34,449 bases of DNA, taken from the IMG/VR virus record IMGVR_UViG_3300033149_002058, positions 1 through 34,449 of that record; one strand, 5' to 3'. The notes below the pieces were generated by a model that was given only the letters and a program-made list of their open reading frames with translations, was not told where the DNA came from and ran no database searches. The translations under genes were made by a program, and so were the position numbers. Positions 26,679-34,449 of the stretch are shown piece by piece. The DNA is from a virus. Position 1 is the first letter of the stretch. Every line of letters begins with the position of its first letter.

Positions 26679-26714
26679 AAAATGACTGCGGTCATTAATG
26701 ACCGCAGTCATTTT
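26679..26714. promoter_or_regulatory. 36-bp perfect palindrome in divergent control region
   Basis: The sequence is symmetric about 26696/26697, with AAAATGAC at the left end and GTCATTTT at the right. Each half is itself a dyad, ATGAC-N4-GTCAT, so there are four ATGAC half-sites. It could be an operator for a dimer or tetramer regulator, or a bidirectional terminator (A run on one side, T run on the other) that insulates the two promoters. Both readings fit; the nested dyads favour an operator. The gene-free span 26539-26917 holds this element, two promoters and the GTGCAC sites. Confidence 0.75.
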
Positions 26715-26917: not shown

Positions 26918-27424
26918 ATGAGCAAGAAACAGGTGAACGTCCGAATGTCCGATGCCACCCGCTCCAAGCTCAATGAGCTCACGGAGCGGTACGGCACACA
27001 GGCAGAGGCGGTCGCGGTAGCAATCGACCGCCTCTATCAGCAGGAAAGAAAGGAGAGCAAAATGAAAAGGCTATGGGTAATCGAGTGGAAAGGCAACCAG
27101 AACGTTATCCCGTCGCCAGAGTGTCCTGACCTGGATGACCTCGAAGTGGTTGTTGCCGACCTGTTCTTTGCGGTGATCAACGCTAGCTACGACCAAGTAG
27201 AGGCCGCCGTGCGGGACTTCCCGTACTGGCGGATTGTAGGCCAGCCAGCGGATGGTCGTTGGGTCAGTGAGGGCGGTGATGAGGTTTACATCCTCAACGG
27301 CGAGGTAGTTGAAAAGCCCGAGGAGCTGTGGGAGGGCCTTGGTCTTACCCCGCAGGACTTTGGCGGCGAAAGCTGGGATCAGGTTGACGAGGATATCGTT
27401 TGGGATCAAGTTCCCAGCTTCTGA
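26918..27424 (+). CDS. Ribbon-helix-helix protein with C-terminal domain; internal start
   Basis: 168 residues from ATG 26918, with AAAGGAG seven bases upstream. Residues 3-43 fit the CopG/Arc ribbon-helix-helix fold: strand KQVNVRM, helix SDATRSKLNELTERYG, then TQAEAVAVAIDRLYQQE. Residues 49-168 form a separate acidic domain of unknown type (MKRLWVIEWKGNQNVI ... DEVYILNGEVVEKPEEL). Met49 (27062) has its own strong AAAGGAG six bases upstream, so the second domain may also be made alone. The gene runs opposite to all others, with its own promoter and terminator, next to dyad elements; a repressor or switch protein is likely. Confidence 0.8.
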   Translation: MSKKQVNVRMSDATRSKLNELTERYGTQAEAVAVAIDRLYQQERKESKMKRLWVIEWKGNQNVIPSPECPDLDDLEVVVADLFFAVINASYDQVEAAVRDFPYWRIVGQPADGRWVSEGGDEVYILNGEVVEKPEELWEGLGLTPQDFGGESWDQVDEDIVWDQVPSF

Positions 27425-27603: not shown

Positions 27604-28473
27604 CTAACCTCCATATTCAGCAAATGGCACTGCACTCAAATGGCGCAGATTAGACCAGTACCTCATATACCGCTTAAGCTCCCGATCAGTCCACCCGGGC
27701 GCAACGTACTCATTGCGTTTTTCTGCATCCAACGGTTGGTAACGCATCGGATTCGGCCATGCTCCCAGCGCCCAGACTTCCCGCAGGCGGTACAGCGCAT
27801 CCTCTGGCGTATCGTTGAAGCCGATCAGCACGTATACGCTAACCTTGCCCTTCGGAATGCCCGCATCTCTCAGCAACCTGTGCGCGCACCTAAACACTGC
27901 CTCCATCCGAACATCATCCCACGCCAGGCGGACGCACTTCAACTGCCCCGCCCGATGCAGTTCCGCCAGCCGCGCCGCGTGATATTCCGTCAACAACCGC
28001 GCGTCCAAGCCCTGGTTGAAGTCCACACCCCTGATCCCGCTCTCAAGTAGCCGATCTATCACCTGATCAAAGTGCGCCTCACTACACGCCAGCAAGTTGT
28101 TGTCACAGACGATGGGCTTCACCGACCAGTCGTCAAGCTCAACCAGATCACCTTCGATCCTCGGTACAGCACAGAAAGGGCAGCGACGGATACACCCGCG
28201 ACTGGTGAATGTAGCGCGGGGATTGTGATGTACCAGTGCATCCGCCTCATACCCCACCTCAGCCACGCCCTCAAAAAAAGCCGGGTCGTAGTACACAGCA
28301 GGCCCCCCAACCCTTACACGATAGCCTCTCGAACGCCACCACACCGCCCTCTGGTAGGCCATCTGCCGTCGCCAGGAAAAGACTACCGAGAGATTTACTG
28401 TATCCCCGTCCGTCCATTCCACATATCCACCTGACCACCCGCTACGCTCGCGACGAAGCTGCCACGCATTCAT
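27604..28473 (-). CDS. Radical SAM protein
   Basis: 289 residues from ATG 28473, four bases after GGAGG. The iron-sulfur motif is TSRGCIRRCPFCAVP (Cys94, Cys98, Cys101, C-x3-C-x2-C). The N-terminal 90 residues resemble a degenerate B12-binding-type Rossmann domain (AVWWRSRGYRVRVGGPAVYY). After the cluster come IVCDNNLLACSEAHFDQVID, VDFNQGLDARLL and KVSVYVLIGFNDTPEDAL, conserved barrel elements. The reaction is unknown; relatives in phages and bacteria are annotated only as radical SAM. It is in the early operon with DNA-related genes, so nucleotide, tRNA or peptide modification are all possible. Confidence 0.8.
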   Translation of the reverse strand: MNAWQLRRERSGWSGGYVEWTDGDTVNLSVVFSWRRQMAYQRAVWWRSRGYRVRVGGPAVYYDPAFFEGVAEVGYEADALVHHNPRATFTSRGCIRRCPFCAVPRIEGDLVELDDWSVKPIVCDNNLLACSEAHFDQVIDRLLESGIRGVDFNQGLDARLLTEYHAARLAELHRAGQLKCVRLAWDDVRMEAVFRCAHRLLRDAGIPKGKVSVYVLIGFNDTPEDALYRLREVWALGAWPNPMRYQPLDAEKRNEYVAPGWTDRELKRYMRYWSNLRHLSAVPFAEYGG

Positions 28474-28526
28474 CAAACCTCCAACTGTGCGCTCACCCCC
28501 GCCCCCTTTCGCCTGAGACTGTGGAC

Positions 28527-30277: not shown

Positions 30278-30756
30278 GTGCGCTTCTCCCCCTGTGGTAG
30301 CTTCTCCAGCACGTGCAATCCGCCCGCCGTCTCGCCACACTTGCGCCACCCTGCGCATTTGAAGCAGTAGCCGGGATTGCACGACGCAATCTTGGTCGGG
30401 TCCACGTAAGTGTACAATCGTTCGCCAGGCCACCTGCGCCACGCCAACCGCTCAGCCTCGCGGATTAGTTCACTACTCAGCCCCTTGCCCTCATTCCGAA
30501 ACACGGAACAACACACGCCACTCTGTCCCGCCAGATCAGGACGGTTCATGCGTCGCCACACGAACAGCGCGCGGCAGTCAGCCGTCATCAGTACCATGTG
30601 CTCGCCTGGCCCGCAGATACGCTTCTCGCCCATCCGCCGCCGCTTCTTGAGCCGCGTGCACGAGTAGTGCCGCTCATACAGCGCGGCAGCGCGCGGATCA
30701 CCATCCTGCACCGCAAACCAGGCCCCACCAACGTCCAGCCACGGCCACATATCCAT
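30274..30756 (-). CDS. GNAT-like conserved phage protein
   Basis: 160 residues from ATG 30756, which overlaps the helicase-loader stop as TGATG. Conserved-looking blocks: AVQDGDPRAAALYERHYSC near the start, GPGEHMVLMTADCRALFVWR, SGVCCSVFRNEG, SSELIREAERLAWRRWPG and NPGYCFKCAGWRKCGETAGG. The last two match the late helix and strand of GNAT acetyltransferases. I know this family from many phages as uncharacterised. Catalysis is not proven; acetyl-CoA loop residues are not clear. Confidence 0.6.
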   Translation of the reverse strand: MDMWPWLDVGGAWFAVQDGDPRAAALYERHYSCTRLKKRRRMGEKRICGPGEHMVLMTADCRALFVWRRMNRPDLAGQSGVCCSVFRNEGKGLSSELIREAERLAWRRWPGERLYTYVDPTKIASCNPGYCFKCAGWRKCGETAGGLHVLEKLPQGEKRT

Positions 30757-31340
30757 CAGCACTCGCCTTGCTCTGTGTCGAGATAATACCCTCCCGCGTC
30801 ACTTTCCGTACACGCAATATGATCGCCGCCAGCTGAAAGCCGCCCGACCACCTGGTCGATGGCTTTCTGCACCTCCGGCAACATCCGCGTCTCCATCCGC
30901 GCACGTTGTAGTAGCGCCTCGTACGCTTGGCAGAACCGCGCGCGCGCCGACGGTAGCGTCTCGCTCGTCGTCTCGCACAGCACGCGGTTGCCGCCGATGG
31001 CCTGGAGAGCATCATAGACTAGCGGTGACGAGAAATCATCACGCTGAGGCGGCTTGTAATAGTTGATCTTCTTCAGCGCCTCGGACCACGCCTCGAGAGC
31101 TGAGGGAACACCTTGCTTGCGCTCCAAGAGATCAAACGCCACGGCGCGCAACTGCCCCGCCGACGGGAACCACGGCGTGTCCAATGCCCCATAATGCAGC
31201 GTCGCCGCTTTCAGCAAGTCAACGTCGAGATCGCCGAGGATGGCATAGTAGGCATCGATCGTGGCCGGTGTCAGCGTGAAGCGGGGAAATGCGGCGGCCA
31301 GCACCGACAAGATTTTGGCGAACTCAGTTTTAGGAATCAT
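30756..31340 (-). CDS. Putative replicative helicase loader
   Basis: 194 residues from ATG 31340, nine bases after GGAGG and overlapping the initiator stop by 11 bases. The N-terminal 70 residues (KTEFAKILSVLAAAFPRFTL, then YYAILGDLDVDLLKAATLHY and WFPSAGQLRAVAFDLLE) match the helical pattern of SPP1 G39P-type loaders, which deliver the host or phage helicase to the origin. The remainder is helical. The order initiator then loader mirrors lambda O and P. No phage helicase gene lies in the window, so the host DnaB is probably recruited. Confidence 0.65.
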   Translation of the reverse strand: MIPKTEFAKILSVLAAAFPRFTLTPATIDAYYAILGDLDVDLLKAATLHYGALDTPWFPSAGQLRAVAFDLLERKQGVPSALEAWSEALKKINYYKPPQRDDFSSPLVYDALQAIGGNRVLCETTSETLPSARARFCQAYEALLQRARMETRMLPEVQKAIDQVVGRLSAGGDHIACTESDAGGYYLDTEQGEC

Positions 31341-32301
31341 CGGCGAGGCCCTCCTTCTGCAGCCAATCGCGTATGCCTGAGAAGCCGGCTGGTTCATCCT
31401 GTTGCTCGCGCTTCGTAAGTTTGGGCTGGCCCCACTTCGGCAAGGCCGTGCGCATCATGGCGATGGCCTTGCCACGGGAGACACCACGCTCGGCGGCCCA
31501 CCGCGCGGCGTCCAAGAAGTGCTCAGGGTACTTGCGTTCCAACTCCAATACGGCCTCGCGCTGGGCCACGTTGGCGAAACGTTTGGCTGAGAACAGGCGT
31601 AGAAACTCTCGGGACTTATCAGATAGTACAGGTGTTTTTGTCCGTCGGGACTGCCTGGGCGGGCCGGCGTCGGTGGTATCAGCAACGTTAGTTGCTGATA
31701 ACGTTTCAGTATTATTAGATTCTATATTATTATGAGTCAGGTTTTCCGCTCGCGGGTTAACCGCTCGCGGAAAACCTGATCGCGGTGGTTTGTACTCGGA
31801 GGACTGTGCTGGTGCTGGCGGTGTCGTCGGCTTGTCCGACGACATAGTATCTTCATGTATCTTATCATGTATCTTTGTATGTCTCTCTGACATACCACTG
31901 TTTCTCTCTGACATACCACTGTTTCTCTCTGACATACCACTGTTTCTCTCTGACATACCACAGCCGTCTGACTGTTTCTCTGTGACATACCGCGCGGAGA
32001 GCAATCCGGCGATCTTGACCATGCCCGTGTCTTTGTAGATGTGCGGGCTTGTGCGTGACTGCGGCGTCAGGTCGGCCAAGTAGCCGTTCTCGCATAGAAG
32101 GCGCACATGGCGGAATACGGTTGAGCGGGAGAGGTGTATGCGCTCTCCTATGCTCTCCAGGCTGGCTTTGCACACACCGTCACTCATCTGGCAATAACGC
32201 CAAACTGCACCGTAGACGACGGCTGTTATCAGCCCAACGTCATTTACCACCACATCGATCACGGGTGTGAAGCCATCAACTTCAGTCAGGAAACTACCCA
32301 T
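31330..32301 (-). CDS. Winged-helix replication initiator-like protein with internal repeats
   Basis: 323 residues from ATG 32301 (MGSFLTEVDGFTPVIDVVVN); ATG 32310 is an alternative. The frame opens to 32481 but that lies next to the -10 box, so translation cannot begin there. Residues 20-85 form a winged helix (SLESIGERIHLSRSTVFRHV). Residues 115-141 are four tandem GMSERNS-type units, then a disordered Ser/Thr/Pro linker, and residues about 230-323 a helical C-terminal domain (SREFLRLFSAKRFANVAQRE). This N-domain, repeat, linker, C-domain plan is like phage O-type initiators, and a loader gene follows. A plain DNA-binding regulator is the alternative. Confidence 0.7.
   Translation of the reverse strand: MGSFLTEVDGFTPVIDVVVNDVGLITAVVYGAVWRYCQMSDGVCKASLESIGERIHLSRSTVFRHVRLLCENGYLADLTPQSRTSPHIYKDTGMVKIAGLLSARYVTEKQSDGCGMSERNSGMSERNSGMSERNSGMSERHTKIHDKIHEDTMSSDKPTTPPAPAQSSEYKPPRSGFPRAVNPRAENLTHNNIESNNTETLSATNVADTTDAGPPRQSRRTKTPVLSDKSREFLRLFSAKRFANVAQREAVLELERKYPEHFLDAARWAAERGVSRGKAIAMMRTALPKWGQPKLTKREQQDEPAGFSGIRDWLQKEGLADDS
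31698..31778 (-). other. AT-rich tract and 41-bp inverted repeat (candidate origin parts)
   Basis: Positions 31698-31736 are markedly AT-rich for this genome. Next to them, 31738-31778 form an inverted repeat with arms CAGGTTTTCCGC and GCGGAAAACCTG; inside are two copies of CCGCTCGCGG around GTTAA. Together with the four 21-bp repeats about 100 bp away (31882-31965), this resembles the lambda origin, where iterons inside the O gene lie beside an AT-rich unwinding region. All of it is within the initiator coding sequence. Confidence 0.5.
31882..31965 (-). repeat. Four tandem 21-bp repeats inside the initiator gene
   Basis: TCTCTCTGACATACCACTGT plus T repeats exactly at 31882, 31903 and 31924; the fourth copy (31945-31965) diverges in its last four bases. 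A degenerate fifth core (TCTCTGTGACATACC) lies near 31976. The unit is in frame and encodes GMSERNS. Identity at the DNA level, including third positions, suggests a DNA role such as initiator-binding iterons, or recent duplication. Confidence 0.85.
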
Positions 32302-32481: not shown

Positions 32482-32510
32482 AGTCTATCACGGCTTCCCT
32501 CTTATGTCAA
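32482..32510 (-). promoter_or_regulatory. Sigma70-type promoter of the replication operon
   Basis: The minus strand reads TTGACA (32510-32505), a 17-base spacer beginning TAAGAGG, and TAGACT (32487-32482, four of six matches). It gives a leader of about 170 bases before the initiator ATG. Three 11-bp repeats lie 16 bp upstream of the -35. The gap 32302-32582 holds only these elements and the leader hairpin. Confidence 0.8.
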
Positions 32511-32525
32511 GTGCCGAGAGCAGCC

Positions 32526-32558
32526 ATATCCCAAGTATATCCCAAACATATCCCAAAC
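32526..32558 (-). repeat. Three tandem 11-bp repeats upstream of the replication promoter
   Basis: ATATCCCAAGT, ATATCCCAAAC and ATATCCCAAAC follow one another without gaps (GTTTGGGATAT on the transcribed strand). The 11-bp period keeps all copies on one helix face. An AT-rich stretch (32562-32580) follows. They may bind an activator of the adjacent promoter, or the initiator-like protein for autoregulation. Confidence 0.65.
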
Positions 32559-32582: not shown

Positions 32583-34449
32583 TCACTGCCAAAAGCTATC
32601 AGGTTTTCCCTCAAACAGCGGCAATTCGGCCAGCGCCGCATCCGGCGTCCTGTACTCCGAGCGAGCAAGGGCCTGCTCATGGAGGTACGTCCGGCTCAGG
32701 TCGAGGCCAATGAAGCGCCGGGGCTGGGGTAGTGTACGGCAGACATAGCCCGTCGTACCTGAACCGCAGAAAGGATCGAGGACAGTGGCTGGGACAGTCG
32801 GCAGGGTCTCATATAGCGGCAGGAGGCGCTGTGCCTGTTCTCTCCATTCGGCCATCTCGTGTTCGTGTTCTTCGTCGGTCTTTTTGCCCTTCTTTGGTGG
32901 GTCGGGTAGGAGGTCTACACCGTAGCAGTCGCAGTCAGGACGCCAGCCGAGGGTTTGCACTGCAGGTAGGGTATTATTGACTAAGCCGCTTGTCTCATAT
33001 CCGCCTTCATTTATGCTGGCACGTTTTGGGCTATGGCCCCCCGATATTCGTCTGAGGCGTTGCACTTCTATCACTCTCACCCATCCCTTCCCGCACATTG
33101 GACAGACGCCTTTCGCGCTCGTTCCAGCCAAGACGCACGGCTGCACCAGCGCGGGCGGGAAGGTAGCGAAATGGGCCCCTGGGTAGGGCTGCGTCGGGAT
33201 CGTCCATACTGTGCGGCGGTTGCGGCCTGCGGGGTGGGGCTGTAGCAATCCGCCGCCACGATCAGGCCGTTTGGCAGGATAACCACGTCTTGGTCTACCG
33301 GCCTCGTACCAACCTAACCTATGATCGCGGGCTGTGGAGTCTGCAATGGCCTCTCTCACCGCGTCGGCATCATAGTAATACCTCGCCTGCTTTGACAGCA
33401 GGAATAGATATTCGTGCGCTTTCGTCGGTCTATCCTTGACACTGTTATGAGTGACTAACCCATCCTCAATGAGAAAGAGACCATCTTCAACCTCTAAGTC
33501 AATCATACGTCCAGGCCCTTTTATGATACGTTTATTGCGGCATAGTATCTGTTTGCATTGGCTACCTTGTTTAAGTTGTCGTCTTGTTGCATAGGGCGTC
33601 CATAAAGAGTAAGCCACATAGGTTTTGCCCGTTCGTGCATCCTCTTGCTTACGTCGCCCTTTAGACGTAACAATACCCAAAGAGGCTCCAATCAACGCAA
33701 AAGAGTCTCGCAAATCCTTGGAACTAGAGACTACAATAGAACCATGTCCTTGTCTACGTGATCCATCCCCAGCGATGTATCCATCCCACAGCCCTCGGCG
33801 AAATTGGCGAGGGGCGTTGAGAATGATGTCCAAGTTCAAGCATTTGGAATTCACCTTCCCAGGCACAAGCTGGCTTACCAAGTAATGAAAGGCACGGTTC
33901 GAAAATCGAAGATAACGGTAATGGTGCTGTTGATTTTTCCTTTCTGAGACTCTGGCTTGGAATTTCTCTTCGAGAATCCGCCGAGCTCGCTCAGCTATCG
34001 TATCCTCGTCAATATGCAACGTGATCTTACACCGGAAACCACGAGGTGCATTACAGCCACCCTCGGCAGCATATAGACCTATTAACCAACCAAGATCGTA
34101 ATCAAGCCGTCGCCCGGCCAATTCCATAACTGTGGTCTCAATTAGCCCATCGAGTCCTCTCCATAACAGATAGTCCTGATACCCCGTGTCCCGGATTTCC
34201 ACAGTTTTTGTAAGGTGGATGGCGTTTCTCCGTCGGTCATGCGAAATCGGCCAGCGGTGGTCTTCTGAGCACTCAACCTCGCAGACCTTTGCAGCCTCAA
34301 ATTGAACACTGTACTCTTTCTCAACTTCCCATACATGTATAATCTTTCGCCAACCGTTTGGGGTGAGGATCAGAGGATAATCTTTCAGACCAGAAAGCTC
34401 GCCCAGGGTAATACGCTTGGCCTTGCCCTGCACTTTCACAAAGATATGG
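32583..34449 (-). CDS. DNA methyltransferase with LAGLIDADG intein, 5' end beyond right edge
   Basis: The frame is open at base 34449; about 621 residues are visible. From the right edge to Asn (33446-33444) it is an intein. The C-extein (33443-32583, 286 residues) begins SVKDRPTKAHEYLFLLSK, a conserved stretch of N4-cytosine/N6-adenine methyltransferases, continues YYYDADAVREA, has a Cys-pair insertion (GVCPMCGKGW ... PDCDCYG), and ends with the SAM-binding motif TVLDPFCGSGTTG and FIGLDLS. The catalytic DPPY/SPPY motif must lie in the N-extein outside the window. The enzyme would methylate phage DNA, perhaps against host restriction. There is no obvious terminator after it; the replication promoter follows. 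Confidence 0.85.
   Translation of the reverse strand, partial: HIFVKVQGKAKRITLGELSGLKDYPLILTPNGWRKIIHVWEVEKEYSVQFEAAKVCEVECSEDHRWPISHDRRRNAIHLTKTVEIRDTGYQDYLLWRGLDGLIETTVMELAGRRLDYDLGWLIGLYAAEGGCNAPRGFRCKITLHIDEDTIAERARRILEEKFQARVSERKNQQHHYRYLRFSNRAFHYLVSQLVPGKVNSKCLNLDIILNAPRQFRRGLWDGYIAGDGSRRQGHGSIVVSSSKDLRDSFALIGASLGIVTSKGRRKQEDARTGKTYVAYSLWTPYATRRQLKQGSQCKQILCRNKRIIKGPGRMIDLEVEDGLFLIEDGLVTHNSVKDRPTKAHEYLFLLSKQARYYYDADAVREAIADSTARDHRLGWYEAGRPRRGYPAKRPDRGGGLLQPHPAGRNRRTVWTIPTQPYPGAHFATFPPALVQPCVLAGTSAKGVCPMCGKGWVRVIEVQRLRRISGGHSPKRASINEGGYETSGLVNNTLPAVQTLGWRPDCDCYGVDLLPDPPKKGKKTDEEHEHEMAEWREQAQRLLPLYETLPTVPATVLDPFCGSGTTGYVCRTLPQPRRFIGLDLSRTYLHEQALARSEYRTPDAALAELPLFEGKPDSFWQ
33444..34449 (-). 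mobile_element. Intein with LAGLIDADG homing endonuclease (N-terminus missing)
   Basis: Intein blocks are seen in order from the right edge: a beta region KAKRITLGELSGLKDYPLIL with LTPNGW; block B VECSEDHRW (Ser in place of the usual Thr, His kept); LAGLIDADG motif 1 LGWLIGLYAAEGG; motif 2 LWDGYIAGDGSR; block F DLEVEDGLFLIEDG; block G LVTHN followed by Ser+1. Acidic residues in both dodecapeptides (Glu and Asp) suggest an active endonuclease. His-Asn and Ser+1 are intact, so C-terminal splicing chemistry is expected; the first intein residue lies outside the window, probably within about ten codons. Confidence 0.88.

Follow-up and report, generated by a model that had tools for sequence, protein, structure and literature searches.

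A probable lambda/SPP1-type replication origin inside the initiator gene of an uncultivated phage

The window analyzed here, a 34,449-bp virus record from IMG/VR, is a linear fragment. It encodes a putative replication initiator of 322 aa (32298-31330, minus strand), whose start codon was chosen for agreement with relatives. The protein is predicted to comprise a winged-helix N-terminal domain, a disordered linker that carries the iterons, and a helical C-terminal domain. The winged helix-turn-helix domain (residues ~10-95; 32014-32271, minus strand) was modeled with a pLDDT of ~90 and is the proposed iteron reader. AlphaFold2 predicts a disordered linker at residues 100-217, and a helical C-terminal domain at residues 227-290 (31429-31620, minus strand; pLDDT 87-97), for which we propose a contact with the loader or helicase. 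The initial annotation of this DNA, which had placed a set of repeats between the DNA-binding and C-terminal domains, agrees with this model, as the repeats fall within the linker. The 3' end of the initiator gene is overlapped by a gene for a P-like/G39P-like helicase loader (30756-31340, minus strand; start at ~31340, with an alternative start at 31397). Upstream of the initiator is a candidate sigma-70-like promoter (32482-32510, minus strand; TTGACA-17-TAGACT), proposed by consensus match.

Several other features were identified in the window. An 11-bp repeat, CATATCCCAAA, occurs three times upstream of the initiator (32525-32558), flanked on either side by a promoter-like sequence, and may be an operator array. 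A DNA methyltransferase gene (32583-34439, minus strand) is apparently interrupted by an intein, with a LAGLIDADG_3 domain N-terminal to the N6_N4_Mtase stretches and a typical ...VTHNS junction; the N-terminal part of the methylase lies beyond the window. A Radical SAM domain protein is encoded at 27604-28476 (minus strand; phrog_9298, 2.5e-35). The only evident plus-strand gene (26918-27424) lies near two copies of a 16-bp palindromic repeat, AATGACCGCAGTCATT (26681-26712). GC skew, an origin check suggested with the initial annotation, was calculated for the window and is positive at this single plus-strand gene. It follows gene direction, and was therefore set aside as uninformative about the origin. 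Rfam returned no match.

We identified five iterons on the minus strand of the linker region (31878-31989), spaced by 21, 21, 21, and 32 bp. Each is 17 bp long, with two 6-bp half-sites around a 5-bp spacer. Iteron 5 (31878-31894) is a perfect dyad, TATGTC-AGAGA-GACATA, and adjoins an AT-rich tract. Iterons 2 (31941-31957), 3 (31920-31936), and 4 (31899-31915) share the sequence TATGTC-AGAGA-GAAACA, and their identity is as expected after recent tandem duplication. Iteron 1 (31973-31989; TATGTC-ACAGA-GAAACA) is diverged and lies in a reading frame unlike that of the other four. In iterons 1-4, four of the six half-site pairs match, and the right half (GAAACA) is degenerate. The strongest array that Tandem Repeats Finder reported for the window has a 21-bp unit and covers 31882-31961 (3.8 copies, 100% matches, score 160); it consists of three identical units, which in frame encode GMSERNS repeats, and one variant. 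The four 21-bp repeats described initially are thus real, but the count rises to five with the diverged copy. When the whole window was searched with a 15-bp core, allowing at most two mismatches, minus-strand copies were found at the five iteron positions only. Two further matches were reverse-strand readings of two of the iterons; 0.71 matches were expected, and none of 100 shuffled sequences reached seven.

Directly adjoining the iterons is a purine-rich, AT-rich tract (31833-31877, minus strand) built of ~12-bp AAGATACATGAT modules. It is 64% AT, versus 45% for the gene, and we propose that it is the DNA unwinding element. The initial annotation pointed to a different AT-rich tract, at ~31698-31736 (strand unassigned), beyond an inverted repeat. 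That distal tract is present, but it is not conserved among the relatives compared, which instead keep the iteron-adjacent tract. The inverted repeat itself (31737-31779, strand unassigned), first described as 41 bp, spans 43 bp, with 19-nt arms that are 89% complementary and a 5-nt loop. Its folding energy as single-stranded DNA is -22 kcal/mol (z -5.4). No match was found in viral contigs, and no relative has a comparable hairpin; the structure is real but lineage-specific, and for this reason it is left out of the mechanism considered below. The sequence TCAGGTTTTCC is found at three places in the window, versus 0.04 expected: in the two hairpin arms, at 31737-31747 and 31769-31779 (minus strand), and at 32599-32609, where the methyltransferase gene has its 3' end.

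The repeats could be a feature of the protein, a repetitive disordered linker peptide that expanded by tandem duplication and has no role as DNA. Three identical in-frame units encoding GMSERNS are what such a history would leave, and a synonymous-codon null model was not rejected for the window alone (dyads, p 0.25; repeats, p 0.06). The window by itself does not tell iterons that act as DNA from a peptide that is repeated, but relatives do. Searching one genome collection as well as viral contigs yielded 23 further loci. In 22 of these the stretch following the winged helix could be read, so that 23 loci were examined, the window included. Iterons were chosen by a script that favors dyads.

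At the equivalent place, the 22 further genes carry two to five copies of 17-bp dyads that follow a single plan: a 6-bp half-site, a 5-bp spacer, and the inverted half-site. At least three copies are present in 20 of the 23 loci, and the spacing is mostly 21-23 bp, near two helical turns. The dyad sequences vary from lineage to lineage and include TGTCAA-AAATT-TTGACA, TGTAAC-TTTAG-GTTACA, TATGAC-AGAGA-GTCATA, TGTTGC-AGAGC-GCAACG, TGTTTC-ACACA-GAAACA, TCTACC-AATTT-GGTAGA, and TGTAGC-TTTAA-GCTACA. With the peptides held fixed, 78 6-5-6 dyads were seen across 22 linkers versus 24.2 expected (sd 4.0; z 13.6), and in the same null model a spacer of 5 gave the strongest signal of all spacers from 0 to 11. 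The C-terminal 210 bases of the same genes, used as a control, contain 19 dyads versus 21.2 expected and show no excess at any spacer.

The peptides encoded by the repeats are unrelated from one lineage to another: the counterparts of GMSERNS include AMTESQR/GDRESVE, GMTESHS/YDKKSQR/AMTKSHL, and LSINLTA/CQKSLQP/PVKNFDT, among others. In 17 of the 23 loci the copies are spread over two or three reading frames, and in six they occupy all three. In one relative, L037, the open reading frame ends before the iterons (386-477 from the gene start), and the copies contain in-frame stop codons. Dyads that persist across frames and unrelated peptides, once outside the reading frame altogether, together with the pooled null, strongly contradict an explanation based on the linker peptide, which we regard as extremely improbable. 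The suggestion that the repeats are conserved as DNA while the peptide drifts is borne out, and the comparison shows that what the 22 relatives conserve of the putative origin site is its DNA and not the encoded protein.

The AT-rich tract behaves similarly. The 45 nt directly 3' of the last iteron average 70% AT, versus 50% for the genes, and are AT-rich in 22 of the 23 loci. Their AT fraction lies above the synonymous expectation in 22 of 22 loci (0.699 versus 0.628; reached in none of 300 draws). The only member on a bacterial genome contig (L022) lacks the AT tract, and its repeats are weak and irregular in spacing; one relative is in an Anaerolineaceae assembly. Related loaders also occur in three phages that are isolated or circular, Moorella phage L044 and the spring phages L045 and L046. 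In the genes upstream of these loaders the script found weak repeats at most, and the three phages were not counted as support. In circular L045, the gene upstream of the loader (2250-2993) contains 12-bp AGTAACGCAGAA-like repeats, and a 6-5-6 dyad, TAACGC-TGATA-GCGTTA, was spotted there by eye.

What, then, is the protein that would read these sites? Against PHROG, the initiator matches the O-like family phrog_391 (1e-5) and the replication-initiation family phrog_8102 (1.9e-5), weakly but consistently. Its winged helix matches Pfam HTH_24 at 2e-4, slightly short of the cutoff. No match to Phage_rep_O (PF04492) was found at E-values up to 1, whereas lambda O itself scores 123 bits; the RepA_N profile is likewise absent among Pfam families at E-values up to 1. 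Direct profile comparison with lambda O (hhalign) gave nothing, and a tblastn search of public phage records with the initiator gave no match. The links to lambda O run only through shared PHROG families (phrog_678 and phrog_345), and homology between the two proteins is only weakly supported. In fold searches, the RepA structures 4pql and 4pt7 rank high (Z 8.4-8.5), but many generic winged helices and regulators score equally well, and in the VIA-align fold list no single initiator family ranks over other winged helices.

Evidence that the winged helix reads the iterons is indirect and comes from covariation. Across the 23 loci, half-site similarity correlates with that of the recognition helix (r 0.31), and part of this correlation is not explained by the remainder of the domain (partial r 0.23, p 0.003, in a Mantel test that is only partly corrected for ancestry). 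In a sliding window the correlation peaks at 0.39 over the recognition helix, at RIHLSRSTVFR. By eye, T-x-N helices go with TGTCAA/TGTAAA, I-I-R-H helices with TATGAC/GGTGAC, and helices starting I/V-D-R/K with TGTTGC. These correlations suggest that the domain recognizes the dyads of its own gene.

Alternatively, the repeats could be an operator array rather than an origin: the winged-helix protein would be a regulator that binds within its own gene to control transcription of the operon downstream. In support of this, the dyads resemble the operators of repressors, and many repressors (LexA, MarR, and CRP-like) are among the closest folds. However, operators would be unexpected within a gene and beside an AT-rich tract, the profile matches are to replication initiators, and a helicase loader or DnaB-like helicase is encoded next to the initiator, or very near it, in most loci. 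We consider regulation alone to be unlikely.

The adjacent gene product, first noted for its resemblance to a helicase loader, indeed matches P-like loaders in PHROG (phrog_109, 2.2e-5), as well as phrog_9804 (9e-17), and the loader of relative L004 matches phrog_109 at 3.5e-9. The window loader scores 13.7 bits against Inhibitor_G39P (PF11417), under the cutoff of 22, and that of relative L018 scores 30.2 bits, over it. The best PDB match of the loader family profile is 1NO1, the G39P protein of SPP1 (E 0.006). In the fold search lambda P takes the top three places, with E-values of 0.2 or worse but a clear gap to all other matches; when the profiles of the two loaders are compared directly, the match is weak (23% probability). 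Some relatives have a DnaC-like loader or a DnaB-like helicase as the neighbor instead, and the loader slot therefore appears to be exchangeable.

The layout is closely comparable to that of the lambda origin. In lambda, the origin lies with the genes for O and P (PMC7466680, PMC6022878), and its annotated iterons have the same 6-5-6 geometry, being hyphenated dyads of ~17-18 bp placed 20-24 bp apart. As in the window, they are located between the DNA-binding and C-terminal parts of O, occupy several reading frames, and are followed directly 3' by an AT-rich (76%), purine-biased tract, and the gene for a P-type loader comes next. Lambda also has an inverted repeat after its AT tract, in a place analogous to that of the 43-bp hairpin. 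The lambda-like layout that was proposed for this DNA thus holds in both gene order and iteron geometry. The iteron sequences are unrelated, however: lambda has four iterons with TCCCTC half-sites, whereas the window has five with TATGTC/TGTTTC, and lambda O belongs to Phage_rep_O, whereas the window initiator lies outside it and has no direct profile match to O. As both the Pfam search and the direct comparison were negative, and links run only via PHROG, we describe the function as lambda-like but do not file the initiator in the O family. The initial annotation raised the possibility of convergence; convergence alone is made less likely by the link of the loader to lambda P, in sequence (phrog_109) and in fold.

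Two other systems invite comparison. RepA_N theta plasmids, such as those with staphylococcal RepA, encode initiators with a winged-helix N-terminal domain (the folds 4pql and 4pt7) and carry iterons inside the rep gene. The window differs in being from a phage with a P-like loader, and its initiator has no RepA_N match. In Bacillus phage SPP1, the initiator G38P is encoded by gene 38, within which lies oriL with its repeats and its AT-rich unwinding element (PMC6316719). The combination of an origin inside the initiator gene and a G39P-type loader is like that of the window, the likeness to G38P being one of published layout only.

SPP1 has a second origin, oriR, and its two origins are bound by one protein (PMC6316719). 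By analogy, the iterons described here could bind the initiator and serve in copy control or incompatibility, with initiation elsewhere, and a second site could be missing from a linear fragment. Arguing against this, no second iteron array was detected within the 34.4-kb window, and the adjacent AT tract is kept in nearly all relatives. We judge initiation elsewhere to be very unlikely.

Overall, the element is very likely a theta-type origin of the lambda/SPP1 kind, situated within the gene for its own initiator, in the part that encodes the linker. The 6-5-6 symmetry and the covariation of helix and site suggest that the winged-helix domain would bind each 17-bp dyad as a dimer. By analogy with lambda, several dimers on phased iterons may wrap the DNA into an O-some-like complex, and the AT-rich tract with its purine skew, just 3' of the final iteron, would then melt. 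The C-terminal domain of the initiator would recruit the product of the next gene, the P/G39P-like loader, and the loader, judging from its profile matches, would deliver the host replicative helicase.

More broadly, these phages may carry an O-like lineage outside Phage_rep_O, in which the winged helix and the dyads of its own gene change together. If so, one 6-5-6 layout would accommodate many half-sites readable from the recognition helix and give rise to mutually orthogonal origins, the origin could leave the reading frame (as in L037), and the loader could be exchanged (P-like, DnaC-like, or DnaB). We offer this broader picture tentatively, as a possibility somewhat short of even odds.

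The arrangement is already known, and the present phage is a well-supported new example rather than a new kind. It is significant in bringing a group of uncultivated phages under the origin plan known from lambda and SPP1, and in these phages the comparison shows selection on DNA within coding sequence. The 23 initiator-site pairs constitute a set for studying how an initiator and the origin in its own gene change specificity jointly. For phage origins in metagenomes, the place to seek them may be just after the winged helix, as 6-5-6 dyads 21-23 bp apart.
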